From the NCBI RefSeq assembly GCF_006438955.1, contig NZ_RCZK01000004.1:186001-250000 (forward strand): a stretch of DNA of 64,000 bases, in the 5' to 3' direction. This DNA comes from Sphingomonas oligophenolica. GTDB taxonomy: Bacteria; Pseudomonadota; Alphaproteobacteria; Sphingomonadales; Sphingomonadaceae. The notes beneath the pieces were generated by a model. It made no database searches. It was not told where the DNA came from and saw nothing but the letters and a program-made list of their open reading frames with translations. Positions 34,001-55,556 of the stretch are shown here, piece by piece (positions within the stretch are counted from its first letter, which is position 1; every line of letters starts with the position of its first letter). The position numbers were made by a program, and so were the translations under genes.

Positions 34001-34076
34001 GCCGCTTTAGCTCAGCTGGTAGAGCATCGCATTCGTAATGCGGGGGTCACAGGTTCGAGTCCTGTAAGCGGCACCA
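34001..34076 (+). tRNA. tRNA-Thr (anticodon CGT)
   Basis: A 76-base tRNA with encoded CCA. The acceptor stem GCCGCTT pairs with AAGCGGC, the D stem is AGCTC...GAGC, the anticodon stem TCGCA/TGCGG holds the loop TTCGTAA with CGT at 34-36, and the T arm is ACAGGTTCGAGTCCTGT. The codon read is ACG. The 3' 48 bases are repeated at 55509-55556, showing that this tRNA gene is the integration site of the element downstream and that the tRNA stayed intact after insertion. Confidence 0.97.
34029..34076 (+). repeat. attL: 48-bp direct repeat
   Basis: Identical over 48 bases to 55509-55556. It begins at GCATTCGTAATGCGG in the anticodon stem and ends with the encoded CCA. The base before it differs between copies (C here, T at attR), as do the bases after it (TTAT versus CCCC), which fixes the repeat limits. 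Crossover in the anticodon stem-loop is usual for tyrosine integrases that use tRNA genes. Confidence 0.95.
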
Positions 34077-37969: not shown

Positions 37970-40900
37970 ATGGGTAACCAGCTCAACTCTTTCCCGCTCG
38001 TGATCTCGGTCAAGGAAGACGGCCAGCTCGCCGCCACCACGAAGCGGATCGAGCAATTCATCGGCGGCGGCTTCGAACGCGCTGCGCGAACTGCGGAGGA
38101 TGCCGGGAGGCGGATCAACAAGGCCTTCGACATCGGCGATGCCCGGCGCCAGGTCGAGCAGTTCGGCCGCGCGATCGGTGAGCTCAAAACGAAGTCGATC
38201 GCAGACCCGCTGGGCATCAAGGCCTCAGCCGCCGCGCTCAACGGGTCGACGTTCCAGAAGCTCGCCAACGATCAACTCGCCGCGGAAAACGGCCTTGCTC
38301 GACAGCGCGAGCAATACGCGCAGGAACGGGTCGCGCAGATCCAGCGTGAAGCGACCCTCGCCATCGCCGCGATCAATGATCGCAAGGCAGCGCAGACCGC
38401 CGCGTTCCAGAAAGCGGAGGCCGAGGGGCAGGCGCTGATCCAGCAGCAACAGCAGCGGGTCGCCGAGGCGGTCAAAAATGTCGCCGCGCCGAGCGCGCCG
38501 CAGCCGGTGTTCTTCGATCCGGCGGGCGCGCAGGCATCCGCCACCGCCGCGCGAACCTTTGCCACGTCGCTCGATCAGATCGCGCGCGCCGCCGAGCACG
38601 TCGCGGTGAACGGGCGGGACGTGACGCAGACGGATCGCGATCAGGCCGTCGCGATGCGCGAGGCTGCCAACGCCGCCAGCTTCCAAGCCAACCGGCTCGA
38701 GGCGCTCGCCGTCAATCAGGCGAGGGTCGCCACCGCCGCGGGCGAGATCGGGACCAAGTTCAACACCGCGGGCGCGATCGTCACCCGATCGGCCAACGCG
38801 CAGCAATTCGCGATCCGCAACGTCGGTCAGCAGTTTGGCGATTTCGGCCTGTCGGTCGCGGCGGGGATCAGTCCGGCGCGGGCGTTCGGTCAACAGGCCG
38901 GTCAGCTGGGATACGCGCTGTCGGAGATGGGCGGGAAGCTCGGCGCAGTCGGCGCGTTCTTGACCGGCCCGTGGGGTATCGCGCTCACCGTCGCCGCCGC
39001 TGTCGCCGCTCCGTTCGTCGAGAAGCTGTTTGAGACCGGCGAAGCGGCCAAGGTGGCGGAGCTCGCATCGTCCAGGCTTGGCGACGCCGAAAGCACCCTC
39101 GCCGACATCTTCGGCAAGACGTCGAGCAAGATCGCCGAGCAAACCGAACTGCTTCGCCTGAATGCGCGCGCGAAGGCGATCAACCTGCGCATCGAGGCGG
39201 CGAACGACGCGAATGATGCTCGGGCCGCATTCCGGGATGCGGGCAAGCCGAGCACCGGGCGCAAGCTCGCCGGCACGCTGGGCGTCGTCGGCGGCGCGCT
39301 CGCGCTCAACCGGTCGCTCTTCAGCAGCGGCGTCGACCAGTTCCGCGGCAATGATCCGGTGCGCGCGCTGGCGACGCGGGGCCGGGCGGCCCTGGCGATC
39401 AGCGACCCCGCGGCGCAGACCAAGGCGTTCGACGCGCTGCTACGGTCGACCGAGACCACCAATTTCGACGGCTCGGGTGTCGACAAGAAGGCGTTTATCG
39501 AGGCGGTATCGAAGGCGGCCGCCAGCCGGGCGAACACGGCGATTTCGAAGTATATCGACGAAAGCCTCGATAGCGGCAGGATCGCGCCGCAGCTCGTCAA
39601 GCCGACCAAGACGAAGGGCACGGGCACCGGCGGTAGGACCTCCCTGCTCAACGCGCAGGCGCGCCTCGACGCTGCCGACAATCCGGTTGAACAGGCCCGC
39701 GCGGGGCTCGCGGTGACCAAGGCCCAGAATGCCGAGCTGCTCGCGCAGGGCAAGATCACTGAGGCGACCTACCGGACCCGTGTGAAGGCCGCTCAGCTCG
39801 AGGTGAACCAAGCCGAGGGGCTCAAGAAGGCCACCGCCGCGGGCAAGGCCGCCGAGCGCGCCTACACGAAGCTTATCGATTTTGGGAAGAGCGCCGGTAC
39901 CTCGATCGCGCAGATCAGCGCAGAATTCGACGACCAGCCGCGCCTCATCGATCGCGCCGCCGCCGCCACGCAGAAGCTGAGCGACCTGATCGCCGACCTT
40001 GGCCAGCGCCAGCCGCCCGGCTTCGAGGATCTGATCGCCGATGCCGAGAAGGCGAAGGGCATCGTCGAGACCGGCCTCACCAAGCCGTTCCGCGACCTTG
40101 TCGAAGCGCAGCAAGAACAGCTCGCCACCGGCAAGCTGATCCTCGCCGGGCGCCAGGATGAGGCCGATGCGCTCGGTCAGATCCTCCAGCTACAGCGGAC
40201 CAAGGGCACGGTCACGGAAGCCGAACGGGCGGTGATCATCGCCAACACCAGCGCGCTCAAGGATCAGGCGAGCGAACTCGAGCGCCAGGCGCAATTCATC
40301 GATATCCAGGTGCGCGCTGCATCCGATCTTCAATCGGCACTAACCGACGCGCTGGAAAAGCCCTTCGCGAAAGGGTCGATCACCAAACTGACCGACGCAT
40401 TGACCGCCGGCCGCCAGCGCCAGATCGCAGAGACATTATCGCTGAAACTATTCGGCGGCGATCTGGGCTCAAAGGTCCACGATGCGCTGACCCGCAATAA
40501 CCAGCCGACGGTGCAAGCGGCGGACGCGCTCAAGGGGTCGGCGGCGAAACTGTCCGAGGCAGCCGCGGCGATCGCATCGGCCAAATCGAACGATCCGTCG
40601 ATCGCGTCGCTGACCACCACGCCCACGGCATACGGCGCGAGTCCCGCCGGAGTCGCTGCGCAGATCGCGGGCCAGGTCGGAGACATCGTCGTCACCAGCC
40701 AGAAGCTCGATCAGAATCCGTTGGCCGACGCGCTCGGCCCGGTGAAATTCTCGCTCGATTCGAGCAGCCTGCCCGACCTGTCGAAGATCGCTGCCGAGAA
40801 AGCGGATCAGGATCGTCGGCGCGAGGCGGCCCAGGCCGTCGTTCTCAACTATGCCGCCCAGGCGATCGGCGGCAAAGGCGGCAACCTGATCAACGCCTAT

Positions 40901-42391
40901 CAGAACAGCAAAGAGCTCGGCCACATCGGCGAGGATATCGCCAAGGGGCTCGGCGGGACCTTGGGCGAAAAGGTTGGCGGTGCGTTCACGGGCGCGGGGC
41001 AAGGCCTCGTCTCAGACTCGGCTCTGAAACTGCTCGGCGTCGAGAGCAGCAGCACCGGCGCGGCGATCGGCGGCGCGATCGGGTCGTTCGTGCCGATCCC
41101 CGGCGGCGCGTTCATCGGCGGTGCGATCGGCGGCATCATCGGCGGCCTATTCCAAAAGACGGCCAAGGGCTCGGCTGGTATCTCGGTCGCGAACGGCGCA
41201 TTCGGCGCGGGTTCGTCATCCGGCTCGACCGGCGCGCTCGCCGCCCAGGCAGCAGGCCTGGCAGGCAGCGTCTCCGATGGCCTCAACTCGATCGCCAAGC
41301 AGCTTGGCGGGCTCGTCAGCGGCTCGACCGACGTCAAGATCGGCACGTACAAGGGCGAATTCCGCGTCAACGACCATGGCGGCGCGGTGGGCGGCGTGAA
41401 GGGGTCCGGCGCGGTGGGGTTCGGCACCGATGAAGCCGCGGCGATCAAGTTCGCGATCAAGGCCGCGCTCGACGACGGCGTGATCAGCGGCATCCGCGAA
41501 TCGACCAAGCGCATCCTCGCGGCGGGCAAGGATCTCACCGCACAGCTGCAAAAGGCGACCGATTTCGAGAGCGTGTTCGCCGAGCTGAAGCAATATACCG
41601 ATCCGGTCGGCGCCGCGGTCGACGCGCTCGACAAGCAGTTCGGGTATCTGCGCAGCGTGTTCGCGGAAGCCGGGGCCTCGACGCAGGAATATGCGGACCT
41701 CGAATCGCTCTACGCCTTCAAGCGCGCGGATGCGGTCAAGTCGGCGAGCAAGGACCTCACCTCGACGCTGCAGGGCTTGCTCGACAACCTCCGCTACAAG
41801 GGCGACAGCGGCCTATCACTGCGCACCCGCGAGAAGAATGCGCAGGCCGCATTCGATCCGCTCGCGGCAACGGTGCGCGGCGGCGGCGTGGTCGATCAGC
41901 AGGCGTTCACCGACGCGGCGCAAGCGTATCTCGACATCGAGCGCCAGCTTTACGGCTCGACCACAACCTATTTCGAGCGGTTGAGCGACATCACCGCGCT
42001 GACCGGCAAGGCGATTACGAACGCGGGCGGCACAATCCAGGGCGGGCCGATCGTCGCGAACGACAATTCCCCGGGTGCGATCGCGGCGGCATTGGTCGAC
42101 CAGACCGATGCGCTGACGATCCCGCCCGGTAGCGCCGCCCTCTTCACGACCGGGCAATTCAGCGATGCGGTGGCAGCGGGGTTGACGATCGCCGCGCCGC
42201 AGCTGTCGGTGATCCAGCCCTCCAACGCCGACGTGGTCGACGCCATCAATGCGCAGACCGCCCAGCTCCGAGATCAGACCGAAACGATGCGCGCGGGGTT
42301 CAACCTGATGATCAGCACCACCGGCAAGCTGAGCGGCGGGGGCGGGAACGCTTTCTCGGAAGGGCAGGCCTACACGCTCCGGAACGCTTGA
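37970..42391 (+). CDS. Phage tail tape measure protein
   Basis: A 1473-residue protein with long coiled-coil-like Ala/Gln/Lys-rich segments through most of its length and a Gly/Ala-rich hydrophobic section at about 1025-1065 (AAIGGAIGSFVPIPGGAFIGGAIGG). These are hallmarks of tape measures, which set tail length and form a channel at DNA entry. By the usual rule of about 1.5 Angstrom per residue it would specify a tail near 220 nm. No tail fibre, baseplate hub or distal tail gene follows; the next 560 bp are non-coding. It is by far the longest gene of the element. Confidence 0.85.
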   Translation: MGNQLNSFPLVISVKEDGQLAATTKRIEQFIGGGFERAARTAEDAGRRINKAFDIGDARRQVEQFGRAIGELKTKSIADPLGIKASAAALNGSTFQKLANDQLAAENGLARQREQYAQERVAQIQREATLAIAAINDRKAAQTAAFQKAEAEGQALIQQQQQRVAEAVKNVAAPSAPQPVFFDPAGAQASATAARTFATSLDQIARAAEHVAVNGRDVTQTDRDQAVAMREAANAASFQANRLEALAVNQARVATAAGEIGTKFNTAGAIVTRSANAQQFAIRNVGQQFGDFGLSVAAGISPARAFGQQAGQLGYALSEMGGKLGAVGAFLTGPWGIALTVAAAVAAPFVEKLFETGEAAKVAELASSRLGDAESTLADIFGKTSSKIAEQTELLRLNARAKAINLRIEAANDANDARAAFRDAGKPSTGRKLAGTLGVVGGALALNRSLFSSGVDQFRGNDPVRALATRGRAALAISDPAAQTKAFDALLRSTETTNFDGSGVDKKAFIEAVSKAAASRANTAISKYIDESLDSGRIAPQLVKPTKTKGTGTGGRTSLLNAQARLDAADNPVEQARAGLAVTKAQNAELLAQGKITEATYRTRVKAAQLEVNQAEGLKKATAAGKAAERAYTKLIDFGKSAGTSIAQISAEFDDQPRLIDRAAAATQKLSDLIADLGQRQPPGFEDLIADAEKAKGIVETGLTKPFRDLVEAQQEQLATGKLILAGRQDEADALGQILQLQRTKGTVTEAERAVIIANTSALKDQASELERQAQFIDIQVRAASDLQSALTDALEKPFAKGSITKLTDALTAGRQRQIAETLSLKLFGGDLGSKVHDALTRNNQPTVQAADALKGSAAKLSEAAAAIASAKSNDPSIASLTTTPTAYGASPAGVAAQIAGQVGDIVVTSQKLDQNPLADALGPVKFSLDSSSLPDLSKIAAEKADQDRRREAAQAVVLNYAAQAIGGKGGNLINAYQNSKELGHIGEDIAKGLGGTLGEKVGGAFTGAGQGLVSDSALKLLGVESSSTGAAIGGAIGSFVPIPGGAFIGGAIGGIIGGLFQKTAKGSAGISVANGAFGAGSSSGSTGALAAQAAGLAGSVSDGLNSIAKQLGGLVSGSTDVKIGTYKGEFRVNDHGGAVGGVKGSGAVGFGTDEAAAIKFAIKAALDDGVISGIRESTKRILAAGKDLTAQLQKATDFESVFAELKQYTDPVGAAVDALDKQFGYLRSVFAEAGASTQEYADLESLYAFKRADAVKSASKDLTSTLQGLLDNLRYKGDSGLSLRTREKNAQAAFDPLAATVRGGGVVDQQAFTDAAQAYLDIERQLYGSTTTYFERLSDITALTGKAITNAGGTIQGGPIVANDNSPGAIAAALVDQTDALTIPPGSAALFTTGQFSDAVAAGLTIAAPQLSVIQPSNADVVDAINAQTAQLRDQTETMRAGFNLMISTTGKLSGGGGNAFSEGQAYTLRNA

Positions 42392-48878: not shown

Positions 48879-49465
48879 TCTTCAACTCCGTTCGTGAACT
48901 TCGCGAGCATGGTCTCGGCGACCAGCGCTCGCCCGTGCACCGCATCGAGCGCGGCGGCCGGGTCATCGATCCAGGCGGCGCACACGCGGAGCATTCTGCC
49001 CCCGCTGCCGATGGTCATCGGGTCGATGCCGGCACGCACCATCGCGGCGGTGATCTCGAACCTGGCGGTCATCCGCGCCTCGCCGACTGCGACGAAATCC
49101 GCGCTGAATTCGACCGCGGCGGACGCCTCGACATCGATCGCCAACGCCAGTTTGTTGAGCACGCGGGCGGCGGTTTCATCAAAGGTCGCGAGCAGTGCGC
49201 GGGGATGCTCGGTCGGGTCCCCGGTGCTCAGTTTCCAGAAGGGAATTTTGACCGTGCGAAGGCATTGGCGCGTCGCCGCGAGGAGATCTTGCGGGGTCAC
49301 GTCGGGCTGCATCCTGATCGCCGTCTGACCGATGGTCGCGCCGAGGCGTTCGACCGCGCTCGACAAGGTCATCAGGTCCGCGATCAGATCGTCGACTACC
49401 GCCGAGGCCCGCATGTACGTCGCGGCGGATCGGCGAGCGCGGCGGGCGGCGTTGCGGGCGATCAC
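48875..49465 (-). CDS. Hypothetical protein of the replication operon
   Basis: A 196-residue protein starting MIARNAARRARRSAATYM. The N-terminal half is basic and helical; the C-terminal half (RFEITAAMVRAGIDPMTIGSGGRMLRVCAAWIDDP) looks globular. It overlaps both flanking genes (49462-49465 and 48875-48878). The family is not recognised. Confidence 0.62.
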   Translation of the reverse strand: MIARNAARRARRSAATYMRASAVVDDLIADLMTLSSAVERLGATIGQTAIRMQPDVTPQDLLAATRQCLRTVKIPFWKLSTGDPTEHPRALLATFDETAARVLNKLALAIDVEASAAVEFSADFVAVGEARMTARFEITAAMVRAGIDPMTIGSGGRMLRVCAAWIDDPAAALDAVHGRALVAETMLAKFTNGVEE

Positions 49466-49767
49466 GAGGCCACCTGCACGGCACGTGTTGCGAACGGGGC
49501 TCCATGCTCTTCGATGTGAGCCTGCATCGCGACTATCCGGCGGCCGAGCAGCTTAGCTAACCTATCGCAAAATTGGCGGCGAGCCCGCGATGTTGCGACC
49601 TCCTCGCTGGTTGCGACCAATCCAGCCATGATAGAAACGAGCGCCTCGACGACGTCGCCGCTCGGAACAACGGCCGTCCGCGATGAAGCGGTCTCAATAA
49701 GGCACTCGTTCAAAATCGCGGCGATCACCGCACGCTCGATCCTCTCGGATTGCGCTAGCTGATCCAT
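49462..49767 (-). CDS. Small helical protein (paralogue of 45602-45922)
   Basis: A 101-residue protein starting MDQLAQSERIERAVIAAILNE. The ATG at 49767 shares one base with the primase stop (TGATG). Its helices VVEALVSIMAGLVATSEEV and FCDRLAKLLGRRIVAM match the plus-strand protein at 45602. It is encoded directly after the primase, which may mean a role linked to replication. Confidence 0.62.
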   Translation of the reverse strand: MDQLAQSERIERAVIAAILNECLIETASSRTAVVPSGDVVEALVSIMAGLVATSEEVATSRARRQFCDRLAKLLGRRIVAMQAHIEEHGAPFATRAVQVAS

Positions 49768-51908
49768 CACAGCCCTTCCCAACCGGGCACGGGGTCGTCG
49801 ACCCCATCACCTGAAGCGAGGATGACGCCAGACTTCGGGGACGCGGGGACAACGGGACGCTCTTTATAAAGAGCTGTCCCCGCTGTCCCCATGTCCCCGC
49901 TACGTCCCCAATTCTGTCCGCGATTTGTCCCCGCGGAGCGCTCAAGCTCGTGCGTTATCCATGAAAATCCACCCCATGTCCGTACAATATGCTTTGTATC
50001 CAGTGTCTTGCGCGCCCTGTCGAAGGCTTTCCGAGCGCGCTCGTATTCTTTGTCCCCGCGTTGTCCCCGCGTTGTCCCCGCCCGCAGGAGGTAGTTGTCC
50101 CCCCACGATTCGAAAGCAGCGACTTTACCGACAACATTTCGGTTGATCTCAGGATCTGGAATGTCGGACGGGACGGCGATTCCGTCATTCTCGATGAGCT
50201 CGGCAAGAACATCATACGCAAGGCGGTTACCGGCGCTCAACCGCCCCACTTCGCGCAGAAACGGGTCCATCGATGGCGTCAAATCTGTTTCGGTCGGTTC
50301 AACCACGCACGAGGTGACGATGCCCCCATCCTCGTCGACGCCAAGTTCGACTGGAACAAGGTTGAACAACACCGTCTTGCCGATCTCCCCATCCTTCTGC
50401 TTCGTTACCTCCGCGCGCTTGGTTTGGCCGTCCTCGATGAGGATCACCGTGTCGACACCCGCCTTGAGACTGCTATGTCCGCGCGGCTCCTTGCTCTCGG
50501 CGTCCTTCGGCCGATGATGAACTGGAATGACGCAGCATTGGAATTCGCCGGAAAGCCAACCTGCGTTCGACACGTAGCTCGCCATGTCGTCGGTGTTCTC
50601 TTTTCCGGCGCCGAACGTCTTCGCGATGGTGTCGATCACGATCATCGCAACATCGGCCCCCGCAATTTTGCAGGCAGAACGTATCGTTGCGGCCAGGCGG
50701 AGCACGTCGGCGTTCGGCGCTTGGAGATCGATCGCCGTCGGAATGATAGCGAACGGCACATGATCGGTGATTTTGTGATGTCGGCGGAATGCAGCGACAC
50801 GGTTCCGCAATCCTGACGCGCCCTCGGCGGCAAGATATATAACCAATCCTTGACGAACGCGGCGCCCGGCCCAGGCCCATCCCAGCGCAACATGAAGCGC
50901 TATATCGAGTACGAAGAACGTCTTCCCGCTGCCGCTGTGGCCATAGATCAAGACAACCCCTTGCTGAGGGAAGAGGTTCTTCACCAGCCAAAGCGCGGTA
51001 AGCTGCGCCTCGACGGTATCGAACCATTCTAATGGCAAAACTGCGGGGCCGTCGTCGGTTGTGTCGGCATGTTCGGCTTCAGAAGCTTGGCCGAGCGCCC
51101 GTTCGCCCAGGTCACGCAACTCTTCAACCGTGCCACCTGCATCGAGCCAATCCGAGACGTCGCCCTTCACGGGCAGGCCGGGCAACTCAAGATCTGCGAA
51201 GCGGCGAACGACGCCGGACAGGCGGGACCGGACGACGGTAACATGTTTTCGCCCGGCAGCATCGTTGTCGGCAAGCGCGATGACCGTGCGGCCTTCGAAA
51301 TAGGGCGCGAGCTCGGCCCCGAAATTTCCTGCGCCCCCGGCGTTGGTGGTGGCGACGAGGCCGACCGCAATCAGACGGTCCGCATCCTTTTCACCCTCGG
51401 TGATCCATATGATCGAGGATTTCGGCGCCGCGATCAGGTCGTTGAGCCGATAAGGGACCCGACGCACGCCCTGCATGCACCCTGACCGCGAATGAAAGCC
51501 GCCCCGGCCGTCGGGACCATGAGGCAGGAACGGCGGATTCGCAGGTTTTCGGCGCTCGACCCGAAAGAGAATTGCCCCGTCTTCGTCGCGGTAATCGTAG
51601 AAGATGGCGCGGGCAGTTTGGTTGCGCTGCCCGGTCGGCTTGAGCCCTTGTTCCTCGAGCCACGCAAAAGCGCCGCGCTGATCGCAGCGGCGTTCGCGTT
51701 GAATAAGCGCCAAAGTGCCGCCGCCTTCGCCGCATTCGTGGTCGCGGTACCAGCCTTCGCCGATATGAACCTGCATCGATCCGTGGGCACCATAGCGCCA
51801 TTCCAAGCCACCGTGGGTGATTTGGCGCGGCTCGCCGAGCAGCTTGCGGGCGACGGCAGCCATGACCTTGGCCAGATCAATGTCGGCGTTGAGCTGTGCG
51901 GCGGTCAT
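49767..51908 (-). CDS. TOPRIM primase / RepA-like AAA ATPase
   Basis: A 713-residue replication protein. An N-terminal part (1-165) precedes a TOPRIM fold with Glu171 in ITEGEKDADRL and the acidic DND motif at 214-216 (ALADNDAAGRKH). A RecA-like helicase core follows, with Walker A GHSGSGKT at 323-330 and VAMIVIDTIAKTF as Walker B. This is the primase-helicase fusion typical of phage satellites and integrative elements. The start at 51908 overlaps the preceding stop (ATGA). The 3' part of the gene contains an 11-bp repeat array described separately. Confidence 0.85.
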   Translation of the reverse strand: MTAAQLNADIDLAKVMAAVARKLLGEPRQITHGGLEWRYGAHGSMQVHIGEGWYRDHECGEGGGTLALIQRERRCDQRGAFAWLEEQGLKPTGQRNQTARAIFYDYRDEDGAILFRVERRKPANPPFLPHGPDGRGGFHSRSGCMQGVRRVPYRLNDLIAAPKSSIIWITEGEKDADRLIAVGLVATTNAGGAGNFGAELAPYFEGRTVIALADNDAAGRKHVTVVRSRLSGVVRRFADLELPGLPVKGDVSDWLDAGGTVEELRDLGERALGQASEAEHADTTDDGPAVLPLEWFDTVEAQLTALWLVKNLFPQQGVVLIYGHSGSGKTFFVLDIALHVALGWAWAGRRVRQGLVIYLAAEGASGLRNRVAAFRRHHKITDHVPFAIIPTAIDLQAPNADVLRLAATIRSACKIAGADVAMIVIDTIAKTFGAGKENTDDMASYVSNAGWLSGEFQCCVIPVHHRPKDAESKEPRGHSSLKAGVDTVILIEDGQTKRAEVTKQKDGEIGKTVLFNLVPVELGVDEDGGIVTSCVVEPTETDLTPSMDPFLREVGRLSAGNRLAYDVLAELIENDGIAVPSDIPDPEINRNVVGKVAAFESWGDNYLLRAGTTRGQRGDKEYERARKAFDRARKTLDTKHIVRTWGGFSWITHELERSAGTNRGQNWGRSGDMGTAGTALYKERPVVPASPKSGVILASGDGVDDPVPGWEGL
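49842..50082. repeat. Cluster of TTGTCCCCGCG repeats in the primase gene (candidate replication origin)
   Basis: The 11-base unit occurs three times in tandem at 50050-50060, 50061-50071 and 50072-50082 (last base differs), again at 49925-49935, and inverted (CGCGGGGACAA) at 49842-49852. Related TGTCCCC copies lie at 49875, 49884 and 49892. The period of 11 is not a multiple of three, so the repetition cannot be explained by a protein repeat. A local AT-rich stretch (TCTTTATAAAGAG) lies at 49861-49873. Together this resembles an iteron origin inside a replication gene. Confidence 0.6.
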
Positions 51909-52288
51909 GCTGCGGCTCGCTGGGCAGGCGGTGTCACCCGCGATCTCGCGACCAGCCCGTCCAGCCATTCAGCCTGGCGCCCTGAGCAATAGCGCGCCAC
52001 GGCCATCGTCCGCAGGAAGTCTAACTCACGTTCGTTGAACCGAGTTTGCGCGACGAGCGCCTCGCGGGCGAGCTGTTGGTGATCGGTGTTGATCGCCGGG
52101 GAAGGCGTGGACGATGTCGCGTCACGCATGATCCCGGCGGCGATCAATTCCTCAATACGTAAGCCATTGCGGCGCAACTCGCGATTCAGCATTCTTACCG
52201 CCGTCAGAGCTTCCCCGTCAGCGTCAGAAACGGTGCGCGCCGCGATCGACGCAATGCGATGGACCGCGGCATTATCGAGGCCCGTCAC
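51905..52288 (-). CDS. Hypothetical protein of the replication operon
   Basis: A 127-residue helical protein starting at GTG 52288 (VTGLDNAAVHRIASIAARTVS), whose start overlaps the HTH stop as GTGA. RMLNRELRRNGLRIEELIAAG and ALVAQTRFNERELDFLRTMAVARYCSGRQAEWL read as ordered helices. The longer open frame to 52498 is a shadow of the HTH gene. The family is not recognised; it may assist the primase encoded next. Confidence 0.62.
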   Translation of the reverse strand: MTGLDNAAVHRIASIAARTVSDADGEALTAVRMLNRELRRNGLRIEELIAAGIMRDATSSTPSPAINTDHQQLAREALVAQTRFNERELDFLRTMAVARYCSGRQAEWLDGLVARSRVTPPAQRAAA

Positions 52289-53738: not shown

Positions 53739-54344
53739 ATGCCTGTCGCACTGTCACAGCGGGATGTCCTGTCGATCGTGGGAGGGGTGCACCACGTCGT
53801 GGACGACCGTCAAAAAGCGCTGAAGAGCCGTTTGCAGCATTTTCAGCGACTCGGGTTTCCCGCCGGCATCAATACCGGAAAAGGGAAGCCGGCCGCTTAC
53901 GGCGCACGCCAAGTCGTCGATCTCCTCGTCGCATTCGAGCTGCTGCAAGTAGGCCTTTGGCCCGAGGTAATCGTCGGCGTTTTGCGCCAGCTAGGTTCGG
54001 AGCTGCCTGAAGCCGTTGGCCGCGTGCGATTCGGTGAGGTGCGGGAACGGGCTTTGGACGTCGGGATGGTCCTCGAGGCGCGCGCCCTCTCCGATCTCAC
54101 TCGCCATTACGGCGACGACTTGGCGATCCCGCATACTGCGAAGATAGTGGCGATGGACCAAGTGATCGATCGCTTTGCGGAAAGCTCAGACGAGCATCGC
54201 AGGATAGTGCTGATCAACGTTTCGGCGATGTTAAACGCGGCCATCACAGTTGCGACGACAGCGGTGCCCAAAAAGGCTGACCAGCTCAAGGAAGCGATAT
54301 TCTACTGGGCGCATAACTTTGAGCCGACCGACTATGGCGATTAG
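53739..54344 (+). CDS. Regulator-like protein preceding the integrase
   Basis: A 201-residue protein. The N-terminal 80 residues (SRLQHFQRLGFPAGINTGKGKPAAYGARQVVDLLVAFELLQVGLWPEVIVGVLRQ) resemble a MerR-like winged helix with a GKGKPAAYG wing; the rest is helical. ATG 53739 is chosen; ATG 53721 or TTG 53718 are alternatives, and none has a good ribosome-binding site. It overlaps the integrase start by ten bases, so the two form one operon. It is probably the regulator of the divergent operator region. Confidence 0.62.
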   Translation: MPVALSQRDVLSIVGGVHHVVDDRQKALKSRLQHFQRLGFPAGINTGKGKPAAYGARQVVDLLVAFELLQVGLWPEVIVGVLRQLGSELPEAVGRVRFGEVRERALDVGMVLEARALSDLTRHYGDDLAIPHTAKIVAMDQVIDRFAESSDEHRRIVLINVSAMLNAAITVATTAVPKKADQLKEAIFYWAHNFEPTDYGD

Positions 54345-55455
54345 GAAACGCTCCTGGGCTGCCCCCGACGGCACCGAAAAAACGGCCTGGTTGGTCGATT
54401 ATCGGGACGCTGCCGGTAAGCGCCGCGCGAAGCAGTTCGCCCGCAAGCGCGACGCTGAAGCGTGGTCGACTCAAGCGGCCTGGCATGTGTCGCAGGGGAC
54501 GCACACCCCCGATTCTCAATCGATCACAGTGTCGGAGGCGTGCGATCTATGGCTGGCCAGATCGGGAGCTCAGGGCCTCGAGGCAAGCACGCTGCGCGGC
54601 TACGAAACCCGGGCGCGCCTCCATATCCGCCCGATCATCGGCAGTGAGAAGCTCAGCCGTCTGTCGCGACCGCAGGTCGAGATATTCGCCGACACGATGA
54701 TCGCAACGCGCGGAAAGGCGATGGCGGTGATGGTCATGCGCGCGCTCAGCGCGGCAATCGGCGAGGCCCAGCGCCGTGGACTGGTAGCGCAGAACGTCGC
54801 AGCGGGCGTTCGGATCAAGAGGCCGAAGCGCGAGCGCGAACACGTGGTGATCCCGACGAAGGCCGAGTTGCGCGCCATCCTTGCGGCTGCCGACGATCGC
54901 GAGCGCCCCATTGTGATGACAGCGATCCTGACCGGGCTTCGCGGATCTGAATTGCGTGGTCTGCGCTGGGCCGACGTCGACCTCGTCAACGCTCGCCTCG
55001 CCGTAAATCAGCGCGCCGATGCATGGAACGTGATCGGCCCGCCCAAGTCGGCAGCCGGTCGGCGATCCATCCCATTGGCGCCGACTCTCGTGTCGGAATT
55101 GAAGCGGTGGAAGCTGGCCTGTCCGATCGGCGATCTCGACCTGGCGTTCCCGAACGGCATCGGTCGGGTCGAAACGCACGCCAATCTGTTGCAGCGGCTG
55201 TTTGGACCGCTGCAGATCCGCGCCGGCGTGACCGAGCAGGGGCAGGGGGGTGCCACCTGGCGTTATGCGCTGCATGCGTTGCGCCACGCGGCTGCCTCAA
55301 TGTGGATCGAACGGGGGACAGACCCGAAGCGCGTTCAAACGTGGCTTGGTCACGCATCGATCCAGCTCACTTTCGACACTTATGGCCACCTTTTCGAGGC
55401 CGCGGCATCGGACGCAGCCGTCGTCTCCGCGATCGAGGCCGAGCTGCTCGCGTAG
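54335..55455 (+). CDS. int: Tyrosine-type integrase
   Basis: A 373-residue site-specific recombinase. The SAM-like core-binding domain spans about 65-165 and the catalytic domain 170-373. The catalytic residues are visible: Arg203 in TGLRGSEL, His314 and Arg317 in LHALRHAA, His340 in LGHAS and the nucleophile Tyr350 in DTYGHLF. ATG 54335 is chosen, as the upstream frame is a shadow of the regulator. It sits 53 bp from attR and points at it, which marks it as the enzyme for this element. It inserts into the tRNA-Thr 3' end. Confidence 0.96.
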
Positions 55456-55508: not shown

Positions 55509-55556
55509 GCATTCGTAATGCGGGGGTCACAGGTTCGAGTCCTGTAAGCGGCACCA
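55509..55556 (+). repeat. attR: 48-bp direct repeat of tRNA-Thr 3' end
   Basis: Identical to 34029-34076. The bases before it do not form the 5' half of a tRNA, so it is a remnant and not a functional gene. It marks the right end of the integrative element. The following 225 bp to the IS element have no gene. Confidence 0.95.

Follow-up and report, generated by a model that had tools for sequence, protein, structure and literature searches.

Why should the final sixth of a gene for an AAA_25 primase-helicase be crowded with copies of one short sequence? The gene (49767..51968, minus strand; 733 amino acids; Pfam AAA_25, E 2.6e-33; PHROGs primase/helicase families) lies in a 64-kb stretch of Sphingomonas oligophenolica DNA, here called the window, for which an earlier note had proposed a replication origin inside the gene. 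That note described five copies of an 11-base unit, three of them in tandem and one inverted, and these are indeed present. Exact copies of TTGTCCCCGCG lie at 49842 (inverted), 49925, 50050 and 50061 and a fifth copy, with a single mismatch, at 50072; those at 50050, 50061 and 50072 form a tandem run with an 11-bp period. With at most one mismatch allowed, the window holds eight matches, against a mean of 3.2 and a largest count of 7 in 100 shuffles.

The 11-mer was nonetheless rejected as the repeat unit. What the repeats have in common is a shorter core, GGGGACA on the gene strand, and because the core is this 7-mer, the 11-bp period is merely its local spacing. Nine of the 14 copies of GGGGACA in the window fall within 258 bp (49845-50102), eight in the orientation of the gene and one inverted at the distal end, and all three reading frames are used. 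In 10,000 synonymous codon shuffles of the gene the core appears 0.77 times on average and never more than six times, compared to the nine copies observed, and all four pairs of GGGGACA spaced by 9 bp or less in the 3.09-Mb genome are located at the array. The array is real and not a chance occurrence, its nine cores constitute the array of short direct repeats typical of iteron-type origins, and comparison with relatives, described below, gives good support for an array that acts as DNA and is very probably recognised by some protein.

The cores are arranged in two clusters followed by a single inverted site. Cluster 1 (50051..50102, minus strand; cores at 50096, 50073, 50062 and 50051) codes for amino acids 623-640, which extend from the second helix of a predicted winged-helix domain across the loop and two residues into its recognition helix, and close relatives have iterons in a similar place. 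Cluster 2 (49875..49932, minus strand; cores at 49926, 49892, 49884 and 49875, plus degenerate copies) codes for amino acids 679-698, part of a tail that is modelled with low confidence and is probably disordered. No full core occurs in the remainder of the recognition helix or in the wing. The inverted iteron (49845..49851), with GGGGACA on the plus strand, closes the array.

Two iteron clusters are also seen in close relatives, and the spacer between them in the window is coding DNA with a mild AT bias. The AT-rich segment that the first reading of this DNA had placed within the cluster does exist, with 40% GC at 49961-50000, but the bias is slight and the argument drawn from it is weak. The longest iteron-free gap has 52% GC versus 59% for its region, and the equivalent gap in 11 relatives is 0 to 12 points below its own region. 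The spacers in the 12 measured loci are as AT-rich as their surroundings or slightly more so.

Loci from relatives were collected by protein similarity alone from the matches listed (up to 30 places per search), yielding 114 loci with a matching frame, of which 82 distinct ones, the window included, were tested. For an array to be called significant, the most repeated 7-mer in a stretch reaching from 450 bp ahead of the stop codon to 350 bp beyond it had to exceed its count in all 100 dinucleotide shuffles. Among these listed matches, 56 of the 82 distinct loci, again counting the window, have a significant array at the gene end (21 of 24 close, 17 of 32 middle and 18 of 26 distant relatives). 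None of 81 upstream control stretches does, although these controls, of up to 800 bp, may extend into the preceding gene where the frame is short. About one of the 82 loci is expected to pass by chance, and a winning 7-mer alone does not prove an iteron. The other 26 loci have no significant array in the 100-shuffle test, and the close relatives L005, L014 and L020 are among the loci whose counts were reached by shuffles in a 60-shuffle test. An additional search for relatives contributed no further loci.

GGGGACA was rejected as a conserved motif, given that most relatives have other cores. The cores are specific to lineages and include CGGGACA, CGGACA, GGGGACA, CGTGACA, TGCGGAA, GTCGGAA and others. 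Conservation of the 11-mer in homologous primase genes, which had been suggested as a check, therefore takes a modified form: the 11-mer itself is not kept, but a core of 6-7 bp is, with a sequence that varies by lineage and with arrays that may run past the stop codon. Among the loci listed, the distal cluster lies beyond the stop codon in L001, L006, L011 and L043, and the frame continues through it in L003, L004, L008 and L009 as well as in the window. That arrays can lie either within the frame or beyond the stop codon, depending on the relative, suggests that selection acts on the DNA and not on the protein. Together with the use of three frames and the limit of six copies in codon shuffles, this bears out the claim that the period cannot reflect a protein repeat. 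One draft genome (G819) carries two related copies of the gene, at L118 and L121, both with CGGGACA arrays that might compete for the same initiator.

Three loci with arrays inside the coding frame, L078, L079 and L080, share 82-83% identity over 800 bp and differ in their cores in a concerted manner. CGGGACA occupies all nine array sites in L078 and all but one of nine in L080. The L079 array instead has T for G at core position 3 in eight of its nine sites, in both orientations, which yields seven exact copies of CGTGACA, and the ninth site is lost; a tenth listed L078 site, where the stretch compared for non-core differences starts, is a chance match outside the array and is left out of the eight of nine. 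The 216 non-core positions of this stretch show 21 differences between L078 and L079 and 30 between L080 and L079. The core difference changes amino acids in the tail of the L079 protein, and the winged-helix differences specific to L079 include Gln for Lys near the aligned start of the recognition helix. A concerted difference that affects both orientations is consistent with a co-evolving protein that recognises the sites in double-stranded form. A second concerted switch is likely between L027 and L031 on one side and L032 on the other, where GTCGGAA stands against TGCGGAA at matching places in non-coding DNA.

In the recognition helix, the position just ahead of the conserved Arg, as judged by eye in the closest tier of 24 loci, holds Asn in seven of eight loci with CGGGACA-type cores and in none of eight with CGGACA-type cores, the remaining eight loci having other or unclear cores. 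A specificity rule based on this one residue was rejected, as it fails outside the tier: a Xanthobacter plasmid has Lys with CGGGACA, and Rhizobium phage 16-3 has Asn with CGTGACA.

Between the facing iterons of the window is a perfect 6-bp hairpin (49859..49874; stem GCTCTT and AAGAGC, loop TATA; GCTCTTTATAAAGAGC), a feature absent from the earlier note, and the 48 nucleotides around it give a z of -6.4 when folded as single-stranded DNA. Many loci have a short stem in this position, with loops such as TTTA, TTAA, TAAA or TATA, and the hairpin is identical in L078, L079 and L080. Facing iterons are found in 44 of the 56 array loci, with a summed stem length of 188 compared to 113.6 (sd 5.4) in shuffles, a pooled statistic that counts related loci as independent. 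Applied to individual loci the test is weak, with p < 0.05 in 19 of 44 cases, or 19 of 47 under other settings. Stems of at least four base pairs occur in 29 of these 44 loci and vary in sequence.

The protein has an AAA_25 (RecA/SF4-type) helicase domain at amino acids 315-490, preceded by a primase-like N-terminal half and followed by a C-terminal winged helix and the disordered tail. Besides AAA_25, Pfam gives only sub-threshold matches, none of them to DUF927 or D5, and TOPRIM has no match up to E 5. The N-terminal half is presumably a TOPRIM domain, a name based on motifs that we take to be those of TOPRIM, on PHROGs and NCBIfam matches over this half and on the resemblance to Twinkle and T7. 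A full AlphaFold2 model is poor (mean pLDDT 60), but it resembles Twinkle, T7 gp4 and RSF1010 RepA, and Foldseek matches it to 1nlf, 1olo and 1g8y at E 8e-9 to 5e-8. As modelled, the helicase has the fold of RecA-like hexameric helicases.

The C-terminal domain is predicted to be a winged helix on the basis of its own model and of VIA-align scores. Its coding part spans 49953..50240 on the minus strand (amino acids 577-672), and AlphaFold2 places the recognition helix at amino acids 639-658 (about 49995-50054, minus strand). Amino acids 571-670 reach pLDDT values of 70-94 by ten-residue block in the full model, and the domain modelled alone has a mean of 82.9. Human ORC chain 7jpp_A (Z 8.8) and the MCM C-terminus 2ma3 (Z 8.6) are in the top VIA-align rows, although scores up to 8.8 are middling and common to many winged helices, and these rows also include functionally unrelated proteins. 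Foldseek with this domain alone gave no E under 0.038, and no relative was found by sequence in the PDB at E 0.01.

The gene resides in a 21.5-kb element bounded by 48-bp direct repeats of a tRNA-Thr 3′ end. The left repeat (34029..34076, plus strand) is the 3′ end of an intact tRNA-Thr gene (34001-34076), and the right repeat (55509..55556, plus strand), identical to it at 48 of 48 positions, adjoins a tyrosine integrase gene (54250..55455, plus strand; Pfam Phage_integrase, E 1.7e-17). Few other genes of the element are recognisable. One frame has a sub-threshold DUF6441 match, and adjoining it is a frame of 1473 amino acids (37970-42391) that lacks a Pfam match and has only a very weak tape-measure match. 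These two matches suggest that the element is possibly a reduced prophage or satellite.

Arrays are also present in named phages and plasmids. We chose 14 records by hand, nine from the 40 phage matches listed (1,027 records matched) and five from 27 plasmid records, and found arrays in 11 of them, although some of the records are close to one another (CRP-823 and CRP-811; 16-3 and RHph_X2_25). Rhizobium phage 16-3 has 14 copies of CGTGACA, Caenibius sp. WL plasmid p1 has 12 of TGCGGAA, and Methylobacterium currus plasmid unnamed4 has eight of CGCAACA together with a hairpin. The distantly related Salicola phage CGphi29 has five copies of GGGGACA, the same core as in the window, just behind its helicase gene. 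No array was found in Microcystis phage Mae-JY30, Caulobacter phage GB2A or Vibrio phage 1.210.O, in which the helicase is present. Homologous genes without repeats were named in the earlier note as a finding that would tell against an origin; instead, repeats occur in these 11 records as well as in the majority of the loci tested above.

Caenibius p1 and M. currus unnamed4 are circular and carry phage genes. Their PLSDB gene tables list no other replication initiator, although the tables are incomplete and one could be unlisted, and cumulative GC skew does not turn at the array in either of these two circular replicons. Over 3,729 bp, the gene-and-array region of p1 matches part of a 3.45-Mb contig (L024) at 100% identity. 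This identity to a contig of chromosome size means that p1 may be an excised prophage and not a plasmid maintained from this origin, and the two sequences probably represent the same phage in integrated and circular form. The AAA_25 helicases that carry arrays are paired with differing primase modules (L124, L134 and the window), namely Prim-Pol in phage 16-3, a toprim encoded by a gene of its own in the M. currus replicon and an uncertain TOPRIM-like module in the window.

The position of the array, its partner protein and the occurrence of such arrays on circular replicons lead us to propose, with considerable confidence, that the array is the replication origin of the 21.5-kb integrated phage-like or satellite-like element and that the winged helix of the encoded protein binds it. 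The product of this gene probably docks on the DNA at the repeats. Cognate binding is indicated indirectly by the concerted core difference and by the predicted winged helix; both this binding and the firing of an origin here are inferences. The C-terminal winged helix would bind the GGGGACA iterons within its own gene, and the primase-helicase would assemble on the array as a helicase hexamer and open the DNA at this site. The hairpin between the facing iterons may thereby become single-stranded and offer the fused primase part a place to prime, although its use as a priming site is a guess.

The best of the competing explanations, itself improbable, is an operator or an incompatibility or copy-control array, to which the protein or a repressor would bind for regulation or initiator titration while replication starts elsewhere. 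Iterons also control copy number in other plasmids, and the concerted core difference, which points to protein-DNA co-evolution, is silent on what binding does. However, the copies are located at the 3′ end of the gene, away from its promoter, no second close pair of GGGGACA exists in the genome, and it is not evident what the hairpin between the facing iterons would do in repression.

Considerably less probable is a partition site resembling a parS centromere. Short direct repeats adjoin a replication gene here, as such a site might, and passages of PMC7157519 describe parS loci of mycobacteriophage RedRock with eight direct copies each of an 8-bp motif. Moreover, a protein of the ParA family is listed for the M. 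currus replicon, at a distance of about 11 kb from the array. Against this, a search of 20 of the element's frames in Pfam and/or PHROGs recognised neither ParA nor ParB, none is listed for Caenibius p1, and the arrays accompany the helicase gene, where they overlap the part for its DNA-binding domain or come after it.

Slightly more remote still is a function of the repeats in mRNA (attenuation, termination or stability), with the hairpin as an RNA structure. Although the hairpin is found at the gene end in many relatives, there is no terminator-like site in 49300-50400, and only two of the 29 hairpins are followed by a run of four Ts within 20 nucleotides. Furthermore, inverted copies, which would be different in RNA, vary in concert with the direct ones. 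Finally, the notion that the repeats are a by-product of high GC and a tail rich in glycine, threonine and aspartate, which would suit the coding of this low-confidence tail by cluster 2, is refuted by the codon shuffles and by arrays beyond stop codons, with the three frames in use and the empty upstream controls also speaking against it.

An origin recognised by its own gene product thus remains our preferred explanation for the array, and it may extend well beyond this element. We give roughly even chances to the broader proposal that a single large class of one-protein replicons is built on the AAA_25 primase-helicases found in many phages, satellites and phage-plasmids. Within this class, each lineage would have a private iteron password, placed in the code for its DNA-binding domain or just behind it, together with a hairpin for priming, and password and winged helix would switch together even when amino acids of the tail must change. 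In the open-access literature searched, we found neither a description of such an AAA_25 gene-end array system nor a binding or replication datum for AAA_25 primase-helicases with arrays. If the proposal is right, the origins of many phages, satellites and phage-plasmids could be located directly from sequence by inspecting the 3′ terminus of the AAA_25 gene. The proposal would also provide natural sets in which winged helix and iterons change jointly and DNA sites double as coding sequence, as well as compact, possibly mutually compatible replicons for Alphaproteobacteria.

By analogy, the system in the window appears to resemble PICIs and SaPIs in its logic and N15 and lambda in lying inside a gene. 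According to passages in PMC7581432, SaPI Rep and SCCmec Cch2 use a C-terminal domain to bind iterons just behind their own genes, and PMC6092414 describes, in part of its text, Gram-negative PICI origins 3′ of rep, one of which was tested in E. coli. As in the rep-ori systems of SaPIbov1 and EcCICFT073 and of SCCmec Cch2, so far as these sources describe them, the window would combine an integrated element, a self-loading helicase or primase-helicase, iterons at the 3′ end of the gene and recognition by a C-terminal domain. The 3′ placement in the putative initiator gene agrees, with the window array lying before the stop codon. However, the helicase here is AAA_25/SF4-like and not of the DUF927 or D5/Primase_Cterm type, the iterons enter the coding frame, and the window has a hairpin between facing iterons rather than the clearly AT-rich stretch that separates two sets of iterons in PICIs and SaPIs.

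Phage N15 is said in a passage of PMC4165912 to have its ori within repA, and in the window the array, as a candidate origin, likewise lies inside a primase-helicase gene. The two proteins have no Pfam family in common at E 0.001; N15 gp37 (1324 amino acids) matches Herpes_ori_bp and, weakly, Toprim_3 and not AAA_25, and a k-mer scan of its gene plus 400 bp behind it revealed no comparable array. The lambda ori lies inside gene O, where iteron number changes the length of the O protein (described in part of PMC7466680). The lambda iterons are within the coding sequence of the initiator, as those in the window are within that of the putative initiator. In lambda an AT-rich tract adjoins them. 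RSF1010, whose RepA is among the best-matching solved folds for the full model, has iterons plus hairpin priming sites, as portions of PMC4434180 and PMC4234260 describe. Three separate proteins (the RepA helicase, RepC and RepB′) and ssi hairpins serve that plasmid, whereas here one polypeptide would do all. To our knowledge, the O protein of lambda is neither a helicase nor a primase.

In the archaeal plasmid pRN1, a stem-loop just downstream of the primase-helicase gene is needed for replication and the protein ends in a winged helix, according to a passage in PMC4234260. That system differs in its lack of iterons, its 100-nucleotide stem-loop and its other primase and helicase families. 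Judged by these analogies, the system in the window probably works as the known ones do, and what sets it apart is the use of another helicase family and the location of the iterons within and around the code for the protein's own DNA-binding domain.
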